A DNA stretch of 64,000 bases from Pedinophyceae sp. YPF-701. Lineage: Eukaryota; Chlorophyta; Pedinophyceae. The stretch covers positions 248,001-312,000 of the forward strand of contig CAJZHL010000012.1 in assembly GCA_916048055.1 (NCBI GenBank). Reading direction: 5' to 3'. Shown here piece by piece: positions 11,548 to 24,280 of the stretch (position 1 is its first letter; every line of letters starts with the position of its first letter). The notes beneath the pieces were generated by a model. That model worked only from the letters and a program-made list of their open reading frames with translations. It searched no databases and had not been told where the DNA came from. A program made the position numbers and the translations under genes.

Positions 11548-12060
11548 AGAAAAATCAGTTACGAAGCAGTTGAGGCCGCGCACAGCCCCCGCGCCACGCG
11601 CGAGGTCGCGCAGCTCGCGGATCGCGCGCGAAGCAGCCTCCGTGAGCCTCGCGCAGCTCTGGCTGCCCCTCGCCGCAGCGCGCGACCGCGTGGCACGCAC
11701 CTGTGGGGAAAAGCTTGCTGGTCGGTCGACCTGGCGGTGGCGTCGGTCCCCGGACGACGCAGGGGGTAGCAGCAGAAGCTCTGAGGAGTACTCGCCCGCG
11801 CCGCGGCCGGATCGCAATCAGCGCCGCGCGGCCAGACCGACGCGCCCCCACGTGCATCACGTCAGGTACAACAAAACACACATGACGTGGCCGCGCTCGA
11901 CGTGCGAGCGGCGGCTATGCGGCACCTCCGCACGCCACGTGCGCGTCGCGCACACGCCGCGCCCCTGCGCACCGCCCCCGGCGTCCAGCCGCGCCACCAG
12001 CACGCCCCACAGCAACACCGCCCCCGACAGCGCGCTGGCGTCCGCACGTGACTGCGCTGC
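11548..12060 (+). repeat. Dispersed repeat, copy A (NBP35 3'-end derived)
   Basis: It begins with sequence matching 16,799-16,840 (GGTCCCGAGAA, then ATCAGTT), is interrupted by about 290 bp absent from the NBP35 locus, and resumes with the CAGGTACAACAAAACAC block. It continues into a fragment of the last NBP35 exon (GCACCGCCCCCGGCGTCCAG at about 11,970). It is nearly identical to copy B at offset about 1,533 bp. Confidence 0.8.
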
Positions 12061-12290
12061 CGAGGGCCACAGCGGCTTGTGCGCGGCCTGGCGGTGCTAT
12101 TCCCCGACGGACCGATGGAGGCATCGTCGCGTTGCGACGATGCCCCGCAAGCAGACGGACGTCCTGAGACGGGCAAGTTGCTCACATTGAGCCTGATGGC
12201 CGCTGCGCGCCACTACACCCCAAGTTTGCGATCCCGCGGCCCAATCGGCCGCCCGCCCTCGCCCTCCAGGACGTCCCGAGGCGCCGAGTC

Positions 12291-13027
12291 CTACTGGTTG
12301 TTGGGCGCCTGGTCCGGCGCCAGCCAGTGCAGCTGGGCGTCCAGGACCAGAACGGCGCGCTTCCAGACGTCGTTTGCGGACCTGGTGAGCCCATATGTTG
12401 AGCCGTCAAGCTCGGCGTCTTCGGATACCCGCGCATGCAGGCGGTCGGCCAGGCCCTCCCAGTCGATGTCCGCCGTGGTGGGCTGCGGCGATACGTCCAG
12501 CGCAGCGATCTGGTAGCGGAGCAGGCGCTCGAGCCACATGTCCTCGATGGAAAACCAGTCCTCCACGTACGGGTTCGGCGTCATCGCCGCGGCCTCCGCC
12601 GACCAGGGATGGAACAGCCGCGGCGCTGTGAGCTCGTCCCACATCGCCTTGCATTGCTCGTCAGTCACCGAGCTGTCGCACTCGCGGTTGACCAGCGCCG
12701 CGATTGATGCCCAGGCCTGCGGGGAACAAAGCGAACGCTGCCGCTCGCTGAGACCAGGCCCGGGGGGGCACCAACCAACCACCAGGTGGTTGGTAGCCGA
12801 CCCGCGCTTTCTGGACCGCCACGACGTCCACGAGCGTCACTCAGGCGCTGTACGGACAGGGAGCGTACCCGAGCGCCATGCTTCGACACCCACTTGACGA
12901 GCGAGTGAATCATCGCGGTGGTCCAGCGAAGCGCAGCGGGCCACGTGTCGTCCTCGCTCGCGCTCTCCTCGGCGGGCCGGACACTCAGGAGAACGACGAC
13001 CACCTCCTCAATCGGCCTCACATCCAT
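12291..13027 (-). CDS. Myb/SANT-like protein, shorter paralogue of the gene at 3.3 kb
   Basis: Exons 13027-12890 and 12716-12291 join in phase to give 187 residues. Module 1 is split by the intron: RWTTAMIHSLVKW, then WASIAALVN ... VTDEQCKAMWDELTAP. Module 2 reads NPYVEDWFSIEDMW ... DWEGLADRL ... RSANDVWKRA ... LHWLA and aligns along its length with the first modules of the 3298-5358 gene (NPYLPTWYTVEDD ... DWQEIADRL ... YHWLA). The exon-1 boundary falls at the equivalent place in both. It stops after this module, whereas the longer gene has two more, so it may be a truncated duplicate. The ATG sits in a 5' flank that is itself duplicated near 11,319. Confidence 0.65.
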
Positions 13028-13106
13028 CGCGTACTGCAACCACACAGAAAGACAGAGACAGATGATCGGACTCCTGCTCTTGCGAGCTCACCGCTGGCCC
13101 GATTGA

Positions 13107-13530
13107 AGCCACGCGCAGCCCCCGCGCCACGCGCGAGGTCGCACAGCTCGCCGGTCGCGCGCGAAGCAGCCTCCGTGAGCCTCGCGCAGCTCTGGCTGCC
13201 CCTCGCCGCAGCGCGCGACCGCGTGGCACGCACCTGTGGGGAAAAGCTTGCTGGTCGGTCGACCTGGCGGTGGCGTCGGTCCCCGGACGACGCAGGGGGT
13301 AGCAGCAGAAGCTCTGAGGAGTACTCGCCCGCGCCGCGGCCGGATCGCAACCAGCGCCGCGCGGCCAGACCGACGCGCCCCCACGTGCACCACGTCAGGT
13401 ACAACAAAACACATGACTCGGCCGCGCTCGACGTGCGAGCGGCGGCTCTGCGGCACCTCCGCACGTCACGTGCGCGTCGCGCACACGCCGCGCCCCTACG
13501 CACCACCCCCGGCGTCCAGCCGCGCCACCA
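13107..13530 (+). repeat. Dispersed repeat, copy B
   Basis: Near-identical to 11,575-11,995, with only a few substitutions and a 2-bp deletion in the CACATGAC block. It includes the HindIII-like marker GGGGAAAAGCTTGCTGG at 13,240 (11,707 in copy A). It runs straight into the decayed NBP35 exon that follows. A shorter upstream similarity links 13,045-13,090 with 11,340-11,390. Confidence 0.85.
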
Positions 13531-13775
13531 GCGCCTCCAGCATTGCTGCGTGACGCGCCCCCGCAGCAGCGCCGCCCCCGACAGCGCGCTAAGCGCCAGC
13601 AGCCGGCGTCCTCCGGCATCGACCGCCCCTCCGCAGCCGCCCCGTCGATCGCCACGTCCAGCGACGCGCGCCCCAGGATCGCCACGCCCAACCCCGCTCT
13701 GTCGCTCGCCGCCTGCACGTGCACCGCCCGCACCACCAGCGACTCCGGCGACGCACCAGCGACGCACCAGTGTCG
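13500..13775 (-). pseudogene. Decayed copy of NBP35 last exon
   Basis: On the minus strand one frame reads SPESLVVR ... LGVAILGRASLD ... AAAEGRSMPEDAG, and after a shift another reads [12 protein letters not shown]. These match, in order, SPESLVVR ... [12 protein letters not shown] ... [13 protein letters not shown] and ALSGAALRG of the intact NBP35 exon at 17230-16946. At least one frameshift and several substitutions break it, and no upstream exons are present. It is a 3'-end fragment, not a functional gene. Confidence 0.75.
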
Positions 13776-18500: not shown

Positions 18501-19060
18501 GGCCACAACCTCCGCCGGCAACCAGCACCAGGGATGTCCTTCCTGCGTCCGCGTGCCGCTGCCACCACCACTTCTGTGCGATCCGAACGGCGGCTACGGC
18601 TCCCTGCGTGGAGTGTGGCCGCCGCGCGGCGCTCGCGGTCCGCTGTAGGCGCGCTCGGAGCGCAAACACTCCCCCGGAAGGACTGATCGGCGGCCGTGTG
18701 CGCGGCAGCGGCGGGACACGAGGGCGCGCGCGACGCGGGCCGGCGGCAGTCGTGGCGCTCTTTGCCCTGCCGGGCGTCAGGCGGCATGAGTGACGCGGCG
18801 CGCGTCGAGCCGAGCGGCCGCCACGAGAGCAACTTGCACGACGGCAGCGCCCCGGTACGCGCGCCCCACACCACAGACGCACACGCCACGCGACGCAGAG
18901 CGCATCGACCCGCCCACGACGCGCCAAGCGTCCCGCCCGCTGTGCGTGTCCGCTTCCCAGAGCGCGAGCAGCCGCAGCACACAGCCGCTCCCTCCCGGGC
19001 CCCGTAGCGTCGCTTTCGTCGCGTCAGGACGCTCACATCTCGCGCTCGTTCGTCAACTCC

Positions 19061-20029
19061 GTGCAGCGGGCGGGACATCGATCCAGCGCGACGATCGAGG
19101 CCATCGCGGCGGCCATCCCCTGGCTGCGCACCAACGACCGAGGGGCGCTGGCCCGCACATGCCGGCGTCTCCGCGACGCGGTGGCCGCGGACGACCTCCT
19201 GTTCACAAGGGACATCTCCCGGGGCGCAGAGCCGCGCGCCATCCCGCTCACGCGCCCCGGCAAGGACGCACACCTGCGGCCTCCACCGCACCGCTACGTG
19301 CGCACCTCCGTCGCCCGCCTGGGCAACGGCGCCCTCGTCGACCCGCCGGACGGCCCCGGCTGCGACTGCAGCGCGCCCTGCGGCCCTGAGACCGCCTGCC
19401 CGTGCCTGGCGGGCCAGAGCACAGCGCAGCCGTCGCTGGCGCCGTCCATCCTGGAGTGCGGCCCGCGCTGCGCGTGCGCCGCGCACGGGTGCCCCGCCGC
19501 GCTCTCCTCCCGCGGCGCGCAGCGGCCGTGCGAGCTCCGCTGGACCGGCGACGGCCGCGGCTGGGGGCTGTTCGCCACGGCCGACGTGCCGCCGCACGCG
19601 CTGGTGCTCGAATACGCCGGCGAGATCCTGTCGACCGGCGAGGCGCGCCGCCGCCTCGCGCAGTACGACGAGGCGCGCATGGGGCACGCGCTGCTCGTCG
19701 TGCGCGAGGTCCTGCCGTCGGGCGTGACGGCGCTGCGCACCAACGTGGACGCGACGCGCGTGGGGAACGCCGCGCGGTTCGTCAACCACGCGTGCGGGTC
19801 CGCGGCGACGTGCGTGCTCGGCGTCGTGCGGCGGCGCGGCAGCCTGCTCCCGCGGGTGGGGGTGTTTGCTGGGGCCGGGGGAGTCGGCGCCGGCCAGGAA
19901 CTGACCTTCTCGTACTGCTTCGGGGCGGAGGGCGAGGCGGACGGGCCGGAGCCGGAGCGCGGCGACCGCGTGCGGTGCCTCTGCGGCGCCCCGGACTGCA
20001 TGGGCTTCCTCCCGCGCAGCGAGGCGTGA
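19061..20029 (+). CDS. F-box-like plus pre-SET/SET histone lysine methyltransferase
   Basis: About 320 residues from an acceptor-like CCGTGCAG at 19,066; the first exon with the start codon is not resolved. The N-terminus ([16 protein letters not shown] then [12 protein letters not shown]) resembles an F-box. Next comes a Cys-rich pre-SET region (GCDCSAPCG ... ACPC ... [13 protein letters not shown]) like that of SUV39/G9a enzymes. The SET domain follows: [23 protein letters not shown] and ELTFSY. A post-[15 protein letters not shown] ends it. The family methylates histone lysines, typically H3K9, using S-adenosylmethionine. The canonical N-H-S-C-x-P-N loop is N-H-A-C-G-S-A here, so catalytic strength is uncertain. 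The gene is divergent from NBP35. Confidence 0.8.
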
Positions 20030-20074
20030 GGTGCGGCGGTGCTGCGACAACAGAAGCCTGGCGGCGAACGTAGC

Positions 20075-20381
20075 AGGTGAGGGGGGCGCGGAGGGCCACT
20101 TCGGCGGCGGCGCCCCCGCCACGGCCAGCGGCGCCTCGCGCGCTCGCGAGCGTGGGCCGGGGGGCGCGTCGTGTCGTGCCGCCGGGCGAAAGTCCCCGGG
20201 TGCCTAGGCAGAGAGTGCCAGCCCGAGAGGGCAGGACCCCCAGCAGCCCGCGCGGGCGTGCTCGCGAGCGGGCGCTGGGGCAGCTCACCAGTGCTACAGT
20301 TATGTGTGCCGGCGGGGCGGTCGCTTTGCGGCCGGTCTGTCAACTCAACGGGGCTTACTCCCGCGCTCACCCCACGCTCTC
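20075..20381 (+). ncRNA. RNase MRP RNA, copy 1
   Basis: The core GCGAAAGTCCCCGG (about 20,187) followed by GGCAGAGAGTGCCA matches the CR-I and adjacent segment of RNase MRP RNA almost base for base. The 3' part has CAGCTCACC ... TAGTTATG-like sequence and then ACGGGGCTTACT (CR-V). Two closing helices are possible: GAGCGTGGG (20148-20156) with CCCACGCTC (20371-20379), or GGTGAG/GCGCGG near the 5' edge with CCGCGCTCACC (about 20361-20372). The limits given are those of the duplicated unit; the shortest core is 20146-20381. MRP is the nucleolar ribonucleoprotein that cleaves pre-rRNA. RNase P RNA was considered and fits worse. A TTTCTT run follows directly. Confidence 0.88.
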
Positions 20382-21177
20382 TCTTTCTTGTGCCGACGCA
20401 CAGGGCTGACGGCGGCGGATGATCGGTCGGCGGAGGCTGCGACGTGCTCGCACACGCGTCGGCGCTCGTAACAACAGGTGTGGTGTGTTCAGCTCAGCTC
20501 CCCTCACAGCGCATTTTCTGGCCCCCGCCTGGGCCTTCGTGCCGCTTGCGTCGACGCGCTCCGATGCGCTGCACGCCGGCGAGTGCGGCACGCGCGCGAT
20601 TTCCCCCCTCTCGCCCACCGGTGTGCGAGAGAGGTGCATGTGTTTCGGCGTAGGCTGCGTTGCGGGACGATGAGAAGCAGACACTCACAGACCTGTTCTG
20701 AACTCGGGGCTCATGGTGGAGCCCCCCTTGAGGAAACAGTCTCATGCACCACTCTGACCGCACGCGCCCGCGCCCTCGTGTCGACAGCGCTCCCTCCCTT
20801 CCGCCTCCGCTGCGAGCGGCTGGCCCGCTGCACCCACGCTCCCCTTGCGCCCGTGGTTGCTTTTCGTTCGAGCTGCTGCGGGGTCCGGATGAAGAAAAAC
20901 CTCAACCATACACCAATTCCGAAGACAATGAATGTTGGAACAAATTGAACATGCACTACCAACCGACGGACCCCGCAGCAGCGCAGCGCGCCCCACCTTC
21001 CGCTCACACATTTCCCCGTGCACCTCCTCGCGCACCGCTTCCGCGGCCCGTGCCACGTTCCGCGGCGAACCATGCACGCACCCTGCCAGGAGCGCTTGCA
21101 GGTGCTGGAGCTCGCGCGTGGCTGTGGTCGGGCGCAAGCAAGACCTGCCGGGCAAGCCGAACGCTGCCGCTTCGTCA
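20382..21177. other. Spacer between the two MRP RNA copies
   Basis: About 800 bp without a recognisable gene. A strikingly AT-richer patch lies at about 20,880-20,955. The upstream flanks of the two RNA copies share no sequence outside the 307-bp unit, so any promoter element more than a few bases upstream was not duplicated. Confidence 0.4.
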
Positions 21178-21484
21178 AGGTGAGGGGGGCGCGGAGGGCC
21201 ACTTCGGCGGCGGCGCCCCCGCCACGGCCAGCGGCGCCTCGCGCGCTCGCGAGCGTGGGCCGGGGGGCGCGTCGTGTCGTGCCGCCGGGCGAAAGTCCCC
21301 GGGTGCCTAGGCAGAGAGTGCCAGCCCGAGAGGGCAGGACCCCCAGCAGCCCGCGCGGGCGTGCTCGCGAGCGGGCGCTGGGGCAGCTCACCAGTGCTAC
21401 AGTTATGTGTGCCGGCGGGGCGGTCGCTTTGCGGCCGGTCTGTCAACTCAACGGGGCTTACTCCCGCGCTCACCCCACGCTCTC
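21178..21484 (+). ncRNA. RNase MRP RNA, copy 2
   Basis: A second copy of the whole 307-bp unit, offset 1,103 bp, with no difference that I can find on reading both. All conserved elements of copy 1 are therefore present, including both possible closing helices (CCCACGCTC at 21474-21482). It is followed by CCACTGCC, without any T-run, so if this RNA is made by RNA polymerase III copy 2 lacks even the weak terminator of copy 1. It may be a recent duplicate or retrocopy and not necessarily expressed. Confidence 0.85.
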
Positions 21485-21934
21485 CCACTGCCGCACCTGC
21501 GCGCAGGCCGCGCGGCCACGAGGACGCGGGCACGCACACGCACGCACAAGGTGCTCTCACCACGACGACGACCGCGGGTCGAAGACGTTCCGTCCGGACG
21601 GGTTCCCGATCGACCGATTCCAGGCGTCTGTCGACGCCAATTGTCCGGAAACGCGCCGTGTCCTCCGCGTCAGACTGACTCACGATGTGTCAAGTGGGGG
21701 TCCATGTCGCACGCTCGAACGCGGCGGTGGATTCCGCCGCCGTTGCGACGGCCAGCAGGCAGCGCTTGGCACTCGAGAGCCTCACCGACGCGTACTCTAG
21801 CAGCGCAACGAACATTTGCTTGTGCCAGCACACAGCTTCCCAGCCCTCGCGGATCGGTCAGCGCCGCGCAACTTGCCAGGGCGTGGCGTGCAGCGGACGA
21901 TGGCACCCGATAGAGCCGATCCTTCGCAGGCACG

Positions 21935-24280
21935 ATGAGCGGGGCGAGCCAGGGAGGCGGTGCGGGAGGGCAACCGACTGACGGAACCCCGGGGCTCGCC
22001 CAGGGCCCAGAGCCGGCGGCCACACGCGACGACAGCCGCACGCCGTCCTCCCGCGCTGACGAAGACGGCATGCAGGCGCAGGACGCGTCGGGAGCGGCGA
22101 CCGCGTCTGCCATGGAGGAGGACGAGCCACCGGACTCGTTTCCTTCTGGCCCCGTAGAGAACGGCTGGGGCGCCCCCGGGGACTCTGACAGCGACCCCGG
22201 CCACGTACGTGAGCTGGAGGGTCCAGATAGCCCACCAGGTGAGCCCGTGCGACGCGGACGCGATGCGCACGACGCGCTTGCTCATGCAGCATCTCGCGTG
22301 CTTCCCGACGCGCCCCAGAGGCATGCTAGGCGCCACGCGTGCGCAGACACACTCACACGTGATTCCATCACCGACCCGCGTCTGCGACCGGGCACCCGAC
22401 GCCTCGCGCTGCGAGCACCCGCACCCTCCCCTCACGCTGCGCTCCTGTGCTTCGTGCGCGGTTTCAGCAGAAGCCGAGGCGCTGGATCCGTCCGGGGCCG
22501 GCATCAGAGCCATCAGCGCACTAGTGGAGAGCCTCGTGGGTGACAGTCCGCTCGGCGCGCAGCTCCTCGAGGACGGAACGGCCCTCCTGCGCATGTTGCA
22601 TCGCCGCGTGGTGTCGACGGGAGCCGGCGCGGGCGTCCGGCAGGACATGAGCGGCAGCGAGAGCTCCGCGGACGACAGCGACGACGAGTACGAGACGGAC
22701 ATCGAGGACTGGGCGATGGACCGCGACGAGGACTCGGGCAGCGAGAGCAGCGCGGCGGGCGACACGCTGGAGCCACGCGCGTCCGCCGGGGCGCTGGACC
22801 CGGGCGTCGTGTTCCAGCACACGTACCTCGGCGATGTCGGCGACGTCGGCGGCGGGCGCACGTTCATCGAGTCTGACATGGAGCTGCAAGTCCCCCTCCT
22901 GCTGCTGCGCGACGTGGTGGTGTTTCCAGGAGACACCCTCCCCCTGCGGGTCTGCGTGGACCGGCAGCGCCGCGTCGTCGAAGCCGCGCTCACCGCCCCG
23001 CGGCCCACGCGCAACGTCCTTGGCGTCATCAACCTCCAGGCACGCCCTGAGACATAGCACGTCGCGACAACGCAGGCTCACACGCGCTGCTCAGGCCGAC
23101 ATCGCCCTCTCCGCGCGCTCGCAGGGCTACCGGACGACCGTCGGCCCCGCGGAGGTCGGGACGCTCGTCGAGGTCACCCAGCTGGAGCCGGCGGCCGGGG
23201 GCGCCATGCATCTGATCACCCGGGCGCGGGCACGGTTCGAGCTGGTGTCGATGGGGCCGCGGCCGAGCGCGCCGGAGCTGGACGTCACTGCACGCGTCCT
23301 GCCGGACGACGAGCCGCCGACGCTCCCGCGGGACCTCACGGCGCGAGAGTGTGCGCATGGTGCGTGTTGCACAGGCCCCCCCGCCATCTCCTGACGCAGG
23401 CCGTTGGCGCCGCGCCTTTGCGCGGACAAGGCTGGCACTCGCCAGTTGTGGTAGCCGCTGCTGCGCTCGGCGGCCTCGCGTGCTCTCTCGCCCCGGACGA
23501 TTCCCGTGACGCATTTTCAGACCTGGTTTCTCGATTCTCGCAGTCCCGGCGCGGTTGTGGTCCAAGGTCGACCCCCCCGCCGTGGCGCGGCGCGTGCGCG
23601 CGCTCTACGCCGAGACCCTCGGCGCCGCGCAGCACCCCGGCGCGTCCGACCGCAGCGACGGCGTCGCCGGGTCCTCCGTCGACGGCCTCGCGGACTTCTC
23701 CTTCCGCGTCGCCATGAAGCTCCCCGTCGACACGCTGGCGCGGCAGAGGCTGCTCGAGAGCCCCGACGTGCCCAGCCGGCTGCAGCTCGAGGAGGTGCTG
23801 CTGCGCAACCTCTCTGCGCTGCGGTGCGCGACGTGCAGCACGAGGATCTCGCGATGCAAGTATCTGCTGCAGCTCGGCGGAGGCGAGGCCGCGGGGGGCG
23901 TGTTCGTGAACGCGTACGGTTACGTGCACGACATGCTGACGGTGACGCGGACGCGGCACATTCGGCTGCAGGGGTCGCCCGAGACGGAGCACAGCTGGTT
24001 CCCGGACTATGCTTGGACGATCGCGAACTGCAGCGTGTGCCTCGGGCACCTCGGGTGGCGGTTCTCGGCGGTGACGCGCGGGTGTCGGCCGCGGGTGTTC
24101 TGGGGGCTGCGGCGCGCGGCGATCACGCAGCAGTCGTCGCGGGACGCGGGGTTCCCGGAGCAGCGCGGCGACTTGGTGGCGCGGGAGTCGCGGCTGGCGC
24201 TGGACTGGATGAACATGACGCGGGCGGACAGCAGCGGGTCGGACGACGACGTGCTGTGGGAGGAGGGCACGGACGGTTGA
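21935..24280 (+). CDS. CRBN: Cereblon, substrate receptor of CRL4 ubiquitin ligase
   Basis: Exons about 21935-22208, 22468-23039, 23095-23350/23359 and 23544-24280. A long acidic Ser/Asp/Glu N-terminus precedes a LON-type domain (PLLLLRDVVVFPGDTLPL ... VLGVINLQ ... GTLVEVTQLE). The last exon carries the CULT domain: CATCSTRIS, VNAYGYVHD, HSWFPDYAWT, NCSVCLGHLGWRF and FWGLRR. The two C-x-x-C pairs bind zinc, and the three Trp residues in HSW, AWT and GWR form the aromatic cage that binds cyclic imides in the human protein. In animals it recruits substrates to DDB1-CUL4. Intron 2 is only 55 bp and appears to use a GC donor. The donor of exon 3 has two in-phase options. Confidence 0.88.

Follow-up and report, generated by a model that had tools for sequence, protein, structure and literature searches.

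Analysis of a 64,000-nucleotide stretch of DNA (the window) from the green alga Pedinophyceae sp. YPF-701, renamed Akinorimonas japonica (PMC12574857), identified two identical RNase MRP RNA genes with two box C/D snoRNA candidates between them. The order of the array is MRP, C/D candidate, C/D candidate, MRP, all on one strand and flanked by protein genes. The assignment of both copies to RNase MRP RNA is well supported. Polymerase III start and stop signals of the usual kind are missing, which suggests that the MRP RNAs are produced in an unusual way; taken with the order of the array, the lack of any recognisable signal of this type is suggestive of a polymerase II precursor. On this reading of the sequence, which we give an even chance of being correct, both MRP RNAs would be processed from a polymerase II snoRNA precursor, and gene conversion would keep the two copies identical. 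The features of the locus, in positions of the window, are as follows.

18786 to 20029, forward strand: SET-domain gene (SUVR3-like histone methyltransferase), upstream neighbour, with one inferred intron
20075 to 20381, forward strand: RNase MRP RNA gene (copy 1), spanning the entire repeat unit (RF00030 56.4 bits at 20150-20371; 307-nt identity)
20186 to 20199 (copy 2, 21289-21302), forward strand: mCR-I core GCGAAAGTCCCCGG (motif scan, Rfam alignment)
20207 to 20219 (copy 2, 21310-21322), forward strand: GGCAGAGAGTGCC, forming the P8 hairpin (GGCA-GAGAG-TGCC), whose loop is the MRP-specific GARAR (motif, fold)
20347 to 20357 (copy 2, 21450-21460), forward strand: mCR-V AACGGGGCTTA (motif)
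20663 to 20759, forward strand: box C/D snoRNA candidate of the SNORD25/snR56 type (C box ACGATGA at 20667, D box CTGA at 20754)
20872 to 20982, forward strand: box C/D snoRNA candidate of the SNORD33/32 type (guide CATGCACTACCA, D box CCGA)
21178 to 21484, forward strand: second RNase MRP RNA gene (copy 2), with the sequence of copy 1 (RF00030 56.4 bits at 21253-21474)
22158 to 24280, forward strand: probable cereblon-like gene, downstream neighbour (successive ORFs encoding a LON substrate-binding and a Yippee-type domain)

Sequence alignment of the two units showed the same base at 307 of 307 positions, on the same strand and with 796 bp between them. The preliminary description, which had placed two identical MRP RNA genes 1.1 kb apart within 20075-21484, was confirmed in this respect. 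The CR-I and CR-V motifs that it quoted were present in copy 1 and, like the P8 sequence, were found again 1,103 bases downstream in copy 2. Covariance analysis with cmscan gave each copy a score of 56.4 bits (E 3.9e-13) for RF00030 (RNase_MRP), exceeding the gathering score of 50 bits, and the matches listed for 18.5-24.5 kb at E <= 5 included none to the RNase P family. That outcome, a match to MRP above threshold in both copies and none listed to RNase P, agrees with the Rfam check proposed in the preliminary description. RNase P RNA was rejected as the identity of the repeat, as no RF00009 match was listed at the locus at E <= 5. One lower-scoring match of the same clan was omitted from the 18.5-24.5 kb scan; it recurs in a scan of the MRP-free 821 bp, and we take it to be a snoRNA match. 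The mCR-I and mCR-V elements are both present in the unit and aligned in the RF00030 match. GARAR in the P8 loop distinguishes MRP from P RNA (PMC4287351), and the P8 of the unit, GGCA-GAGAG-UGCC, carries this sequence.

The unit was folded with CR-I and CR-V held unpaired, since formation of P4 requires both. The most stable fold, at -167.1 kcal/mol, paired unit nucleotides 3-19 with 284-301 as P1 (20077-20093 and 20358-20375 in copy 1) and nucleotides 20-25 with 230-236 as P2, with a long P3 at nucleotides 28-110, most of which is skipped by the Rfam alignment, and a P19-like hairpin at nucleotides 237-267. This minimum-energy fold has the MRP layout, with P1 closing the ends, then P2, and the P3 domain between P2 and CR-I. 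The identity of the repeat begins 2 nt before this P1 and stops 6 nt past it. In terms of the fold model, the 307-nt repeat probably corresponds to the complete MRP RNA, closed at either end by P1, and we infer that the 5′ end of the RNA lies at the repeat edge. The qualification reflects the small margin of 1.9 kcal/mol by which the best fold exceeded an internal P1 near Rfam's placement (-165.2 kcal/mol). Rfam aligns only 20150-20371 of copy 1, and if P1 lies where Rfam puts it (20150), the repeat would hold 75 nt of 5′ flank and its edge would not be the 5′ end of the RNA. Forcing one outer-P1 register (GGUGAG/CUCACC) cost 6.2 kcal/mol. The whole unit was not more stable than shuffles (z -0.94).

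A protein-coding reading of the repeat was rejected. The ORF across copy 2 (20949-21800, 283 aa) has no Pfam match, and its single match in the protein search, the 178-aa P0010, is the MRP RNA of another organism read as protein. The additional matches, obtained by searching with P0010 aligned to the copy-2 ORF (ten more relatives, P0012-P0021, at E <= 0.1), are likewise MRP RNA genes read as protein. The residues corresponding to CR-V (NGAYS) were present in 11/11 relatives and those corresponding to CR-I (GESPR) in 9/11. Two pairs among them, P0013 with P0014 and P0015 with P0017, are closely related, and a search of this kind detects a gene only if its frame is open. As an observation in its own right, eleven public predicted proteins (P0010 and P0012-P0021) are thus MRP RNA genes translated in error, and mistranslated proteins of this kind offer a cheap route to unannotated MRP genes. 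A scan of viral contigs for the CR-I/P8 pattern gave no matches.

The covariance model and a DNA search identified no third MRP place in the 27.9-Mb, 32-contig genome, the genome-wide covariance search having scored 25 of 186 first-look candidates. The DNA between the two copies is single-copy. In ten windows of 20 bases, ungapped comparison of the flanks gave 4-10 matches per window (5.8 expected by chance), and local alignments of the 300-base flanks scored no better than shuffles. The first 40 bases downstream agreed at 19/40 positions, which is somewhat above chance; the upstream side did not. Duplication of the unit during assembly was rejected on these grounds, and an assembly artefact is an unlikely source of the second copy, because the flanks differ on both sides and a false duplication would normally bring its flanks along.

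The preliminary description had attributed the identity to a very recent duplication or to ongoing gene conversion, and this proved to be the right pair of alternatives; the edges close to P1 and the unlike flanks lean toward conversion, or toward an RNA-templated copy. The evidence leans away from a simple recent tandem duplication because the identity ends 2 and 6 nt outside P1 while the flanks share little or nothing, and a plain tandem event of recent date should have copied the flanks too. The 19/40 matches downstream may represent the decayed flank of an older duplication. That one copy is instead a recent RNA-templated retrocopy, and possibly a dead passenger, would fit identity edges that track the RNA so closely at the 5′ (2 nt) and 3′ (6 nt) sides in the best fold. 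Against this, no convincing target-site duplication was found, the longest flanking word being 4 nt at copy 1 and 7 nt at copy 2 (a length reached by about 6% of random places), and no poly-A was present in the flanks of either copy. A chance landing 1.1 kb from the parent is also improbable, and we regard a retrocopy as very improbable overall. As there is no convincing target-site duplication and such a landing is unlikely, gene conversion would be preferred over an RNA-templated copy for the two genes. Other near-identical local repeats were noted in the window at 11570-13532 and 694-1347. Repeats spaced 1.5 kb apart match over 300 bp (97% identity) and 127 bp (94%), and a tandem repeat of 286 bp was also present. 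The MRP genes are therefore not the only sequences here subject to local duplication or conversion.

The two snoRNA candidates differ in the features that identify them. The candidate at 20663-20759 has a D′ guide, ACAGACCTGTT, of the snR56/SNORD25 type and a D guide, CATGCACCAC, before its D box, the latter presumably resembling that of SNORD32. It also contains ACAGACCTGTTCTGA, as in snR56/SNORD25, and a box scan showed a 5-bp terminal stem. Its score with RF01188 was 25.1 bits, under the gathering score of 54 (E 0.37 in 821 bp), and its fold was no better than those of shuffles. The candidate at 20872-20982 scored 29.8 bits with RF00133, under the gathering score of 44 (E 0.0044 in 821 bp). 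A stem scan identified a perfect 16-bp terminal stem (20872-20887 with 20967-20982), and the fold had a z of -5.2, with 0/200 shuffles as stable. Its D box, CCGA, is non-canonical (not CTGA). All three guides (ACAGACCTGTT, CATGCACCAC and CATGCACTACCA) presumably fit conserved segments of 18S rRNA. An Rfam scan of 130 kb elsewhere in the genome, covering 13 of 19 stretches, returned one tRNA and no snoRNA above cut-off. The domain scores of the downstream protein gene were 20.3 and 23.3 bits, under the Pfam cut-offs of 28.7 and 26.6 bits, respectively, and we take the pair of LON substrate-binding and Yippee-type domains to justify the cereblon-like name.

The promoter and terminator signals of the MRP copies were compared with those of four control genes of the same genome (U6, U3, U2 and U5), whose 5′ ends were placed by eye; U2 and U5 are presumably polymerase II genes. 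An AT-rich box was present approximately 30 nt upstream in 4/4 controls, with 8/8 A/T in U3, 7/8 in U2, 7/8 in U5 and 6/8 in U6. Random places reach 5 A/T in an 8-mer in 39% of cases, 6 in 12%, 7 in 2.4% and 8 in 0.4%. A TATA-like box was absent at both MRP copies, where the best 8-mer in the -45 to -18 interval had only 5/8 A/T; the stretch before the 20663 snoRNA candidate reached 6/8. No 8-mer with at least 7 A/T was present in 18701-21960 outside the SNORD33-type candidate, and the TATA result is therefore independent of the placement of the 5′ ends. No A box and no B box (<=2 mismatches) were found in 19901-21960, and a word search of the same interval found none of the upstream-element words CCACGTTT, TATACCA and CTGCGTG. 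The stop codon of the SET gene lies 45 bp before copy 1, so an element at -60 or -70 would fall in coding sequence. A tRNA-driven dicistron was rejected, there being no tRNA in the window and no B box in the cluster. Absence of the known motifs at the MRP copies is not equivalent to absence of a promoter.

The first TTTT starts 133 nt past copy 1 and 2,030 nt past copy 2. The rate of TTTT in 252 kb of the genome is 0.67 per kb per strand. In U6, TTTT was found 7-10 nt past the model match. U3 has a TATA box, yet no TTTT was present in the 141 nt read past its match, and a missing T4 run alone thus proves little. Copy 1 is followed by TCTTTCTTG, with TTT 3 nt past the copy (TCTTTCTT), and TCTTTCTTG could be a weak terminator. 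Back-translation of the eleven relatives read as proteins excluded TTTT from the 12 codons following CR-V in 6/11 (five of ten relatives by script, and P0012 by eye) and allowed it in the other five. The missing T4 run is neither peculiar to this alga nor general.

These signals bear on whether the copies are two ordinary, independent polymerase III genes whose promoter elements are of an unrecognised kind and whose place next to snoRNA genes is accidental. Transcription of MRP RNA by polymerase III is considered probable for all eukaryotes (PMC1796607), and polymerase III signals were kept at MRP in 26/26 insects surveyed (PMC4287351). The MRP gene of Ostreococcus is intergenic and monocistronic, with a T-stretch (PMC7671301). 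The TCTTTCTTG that follows copy 1, and the lack of TTTT after a U3 gene that has its TATA box, can also be read in favour of such genes. However, the TATA-like box seen in all four controls is missing at MRP, TTTT is missing for 2 kb past copy 2 but occurs within 10 nt of the U6 match, and neither an A nor a B box is present. Moreover, nothing is shared upstream of the copies, so that two different promoters would be needed. We consider independent polymerase III genes rather unlikely.

The edges of the repeat also allow a model in which the MRP RNA of each copy makes up the body of a spliceosomal intron, the second copy having arisen by intron transfer. The introns would span 20077-20403 and 21180-21506 (both 327 nt), with a 5′ splice site AG/GTGAGG at the repeat edge, a branch point CTCAC in the 3′ strand of P1 and a 3′ splice site CAG/G. 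The repeat begins exactly AG/GTGAGG, a sequence with 15 occurrences in 504 kb on both strands (9.5 expected), and the first AG past both units is CAG/G at an equal offset, as in 0.015% of random pairs, a feature that was chosen post hoc. There is also the precedent of intron-borne RNase P RNA in insects and crustaceans (PMC4287351). Against the model, the last 22 nt of the supposed introns differ while the rest is identical, which copying of a whole intron does not predict. In the best fold, the edge bases are paired within P1, so that the 5′ splice site and the branch point would be masked. The small number of introns read in this genome begin with GTGCGY or GTACGC, namely GTACGC in the SET gene, GTGCGT in U2 and GTGCGC in two introns of the PRORP gene (by eye). 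Despite AG/GTGAGG and the equal CAG/G offset, the intron model is improbable and is ranked below processing from a polymerase II precursor.

Under the preferred reading, that of a polymerase II precursor, both MRP copies would be working genes, and a transcript would start in or upstream of the SET gene. The precursor would be cut and trimmed, or spliced and trimmed, to release each of the four RNAs, and the folded, protein-bound core of MRP would halt exonucleases at the P1 helix. The copies would derive from a local duplication, and gene conversion, limited to the stretch that they still have in common, namely the RNA, would keep them identical. We infer both the mode of expression and the conversion of the copies. 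More broadly, and arguing again from sequence, MRP RNA may have left polymerase III and become a passenger of a polymerase II snoRNA precursor, encoded by two conversion-linked copies, perhaps in other green algae too; this has slightly less than an even chance in our view. The switch of MRP away from polymerase III, taken alone, is about as probable as its opposite.

Comparison with canonical polymerase III MRP genes (human RMRP, plant and Ostreococcus tauri) shows the same mCR-I, P8 GARAR, mCR-V and P1-P3 in a single short gene unit. The alga differs from these in having two identical copies 1.1 kb apart with snoRNA candidates between them, and in lacking a TATA-like box and a nearby T4 run. 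The O. tauri MRP gene, in contrast, stands alone between genes and has a T-stretch (PMC7671301). The nearest precedent for an MRP RNA off polymerase III would, by analogy, be the intron-embedded RNase P RNA of insects and crustaceans, a sister RNA that has lost its polymerase III signals and is produced from a polymerase II transcript (PMC4287351; PMC6797745). Some of these species have two local copies (PMC4287351). That case differs in that the RNA is RNase P and its intron origin is established there.

Both polycistronic and intronic clusters of snoRNAs are found in green algae, and some of them have inverted-repeat stems (PMC7671301). As in the clusters of plants and green algae, the C/D candidates here are close-set on one strand, and the inverted-repeat terminal stem of candidate 20872-20982 resembles the cluster stems of O. 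tauri (PMC7671301). The array differs from those clusters in having MRP RNA at both ends. No snoRNA cluster containing MRP RNA is named in the accessible parts of the plant and green algal cluster literature examined. Trypanosomatid MRP is mentioned beside snoRNA clusters and, in the accessible text, is not stated to lie in one (PMC3091756). Within the accessible text of the open-access literature, no description was found of MRP RNA in a snoRNA cluster, or of two copies in this alga.

The interest of the locus lies less in the duplication of MRP than in the snoRNA and signal context. The preliminary description had overlooked this context, namely the intervening snoRNA candidates, the 45 bp that separate copy 1 from the upstream stop codon, and the lack of recognisable polymerase III signals. 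If the preferred reading is true, the array would be the MRP counterpart of the switch of insect RNase P RNA, and a ribozyme subunit for rRNA processing would share one transcript with snoRNAs for rRNA methylation. A change of polymerase would thus bear on the coupling of rRNA cleavage and rRNA methylation. As the alga is sequenced and in culture (NIES-2566), whether MRP RNA can switch polymerase as insect RNase P RNA did is directly testable. For a fast-evolving RNA that is usually single-copy, the two identical copies also provide a natural test of conversion limited to a functional RNA.

Two further observations were made in the genome. A gene for PRORP (protein-only RNase P) is present at G000:C1:1878699-1879337, in line with the finding of no RNase P RNA. 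No RNase P RNA (RF00009) was found genome-wide, in a search in which the control genomes were equally silent. Given PRORP and the RF00009 result, MRP RNA may be the only RNA of the P/MRP family in this genome, used in rRNA processing, the established role of the MRP family.

The U2 snRNA gene (L007 1411-1560, G000:C8) is seemingly split by a 102-nt mRNA-type intron. The sequence TTCTTTCTCGGCCATTTG ends at 1433 and is followed by an intron GTGCGT...TTTGTGCAG at 1434-1535 and then by GCTAAGATCAAG; the 5′ end of U2 fits Rfam's contiguous alignment poorly. No description of snRNA introns in green algae was found in the literature searched. U2 and U5 share CTACAAATAC near -29, with ACCACGTTT exactly 45 nt upstream of it in both, and the two elements together are a likely snRNA promoter of this lineage.
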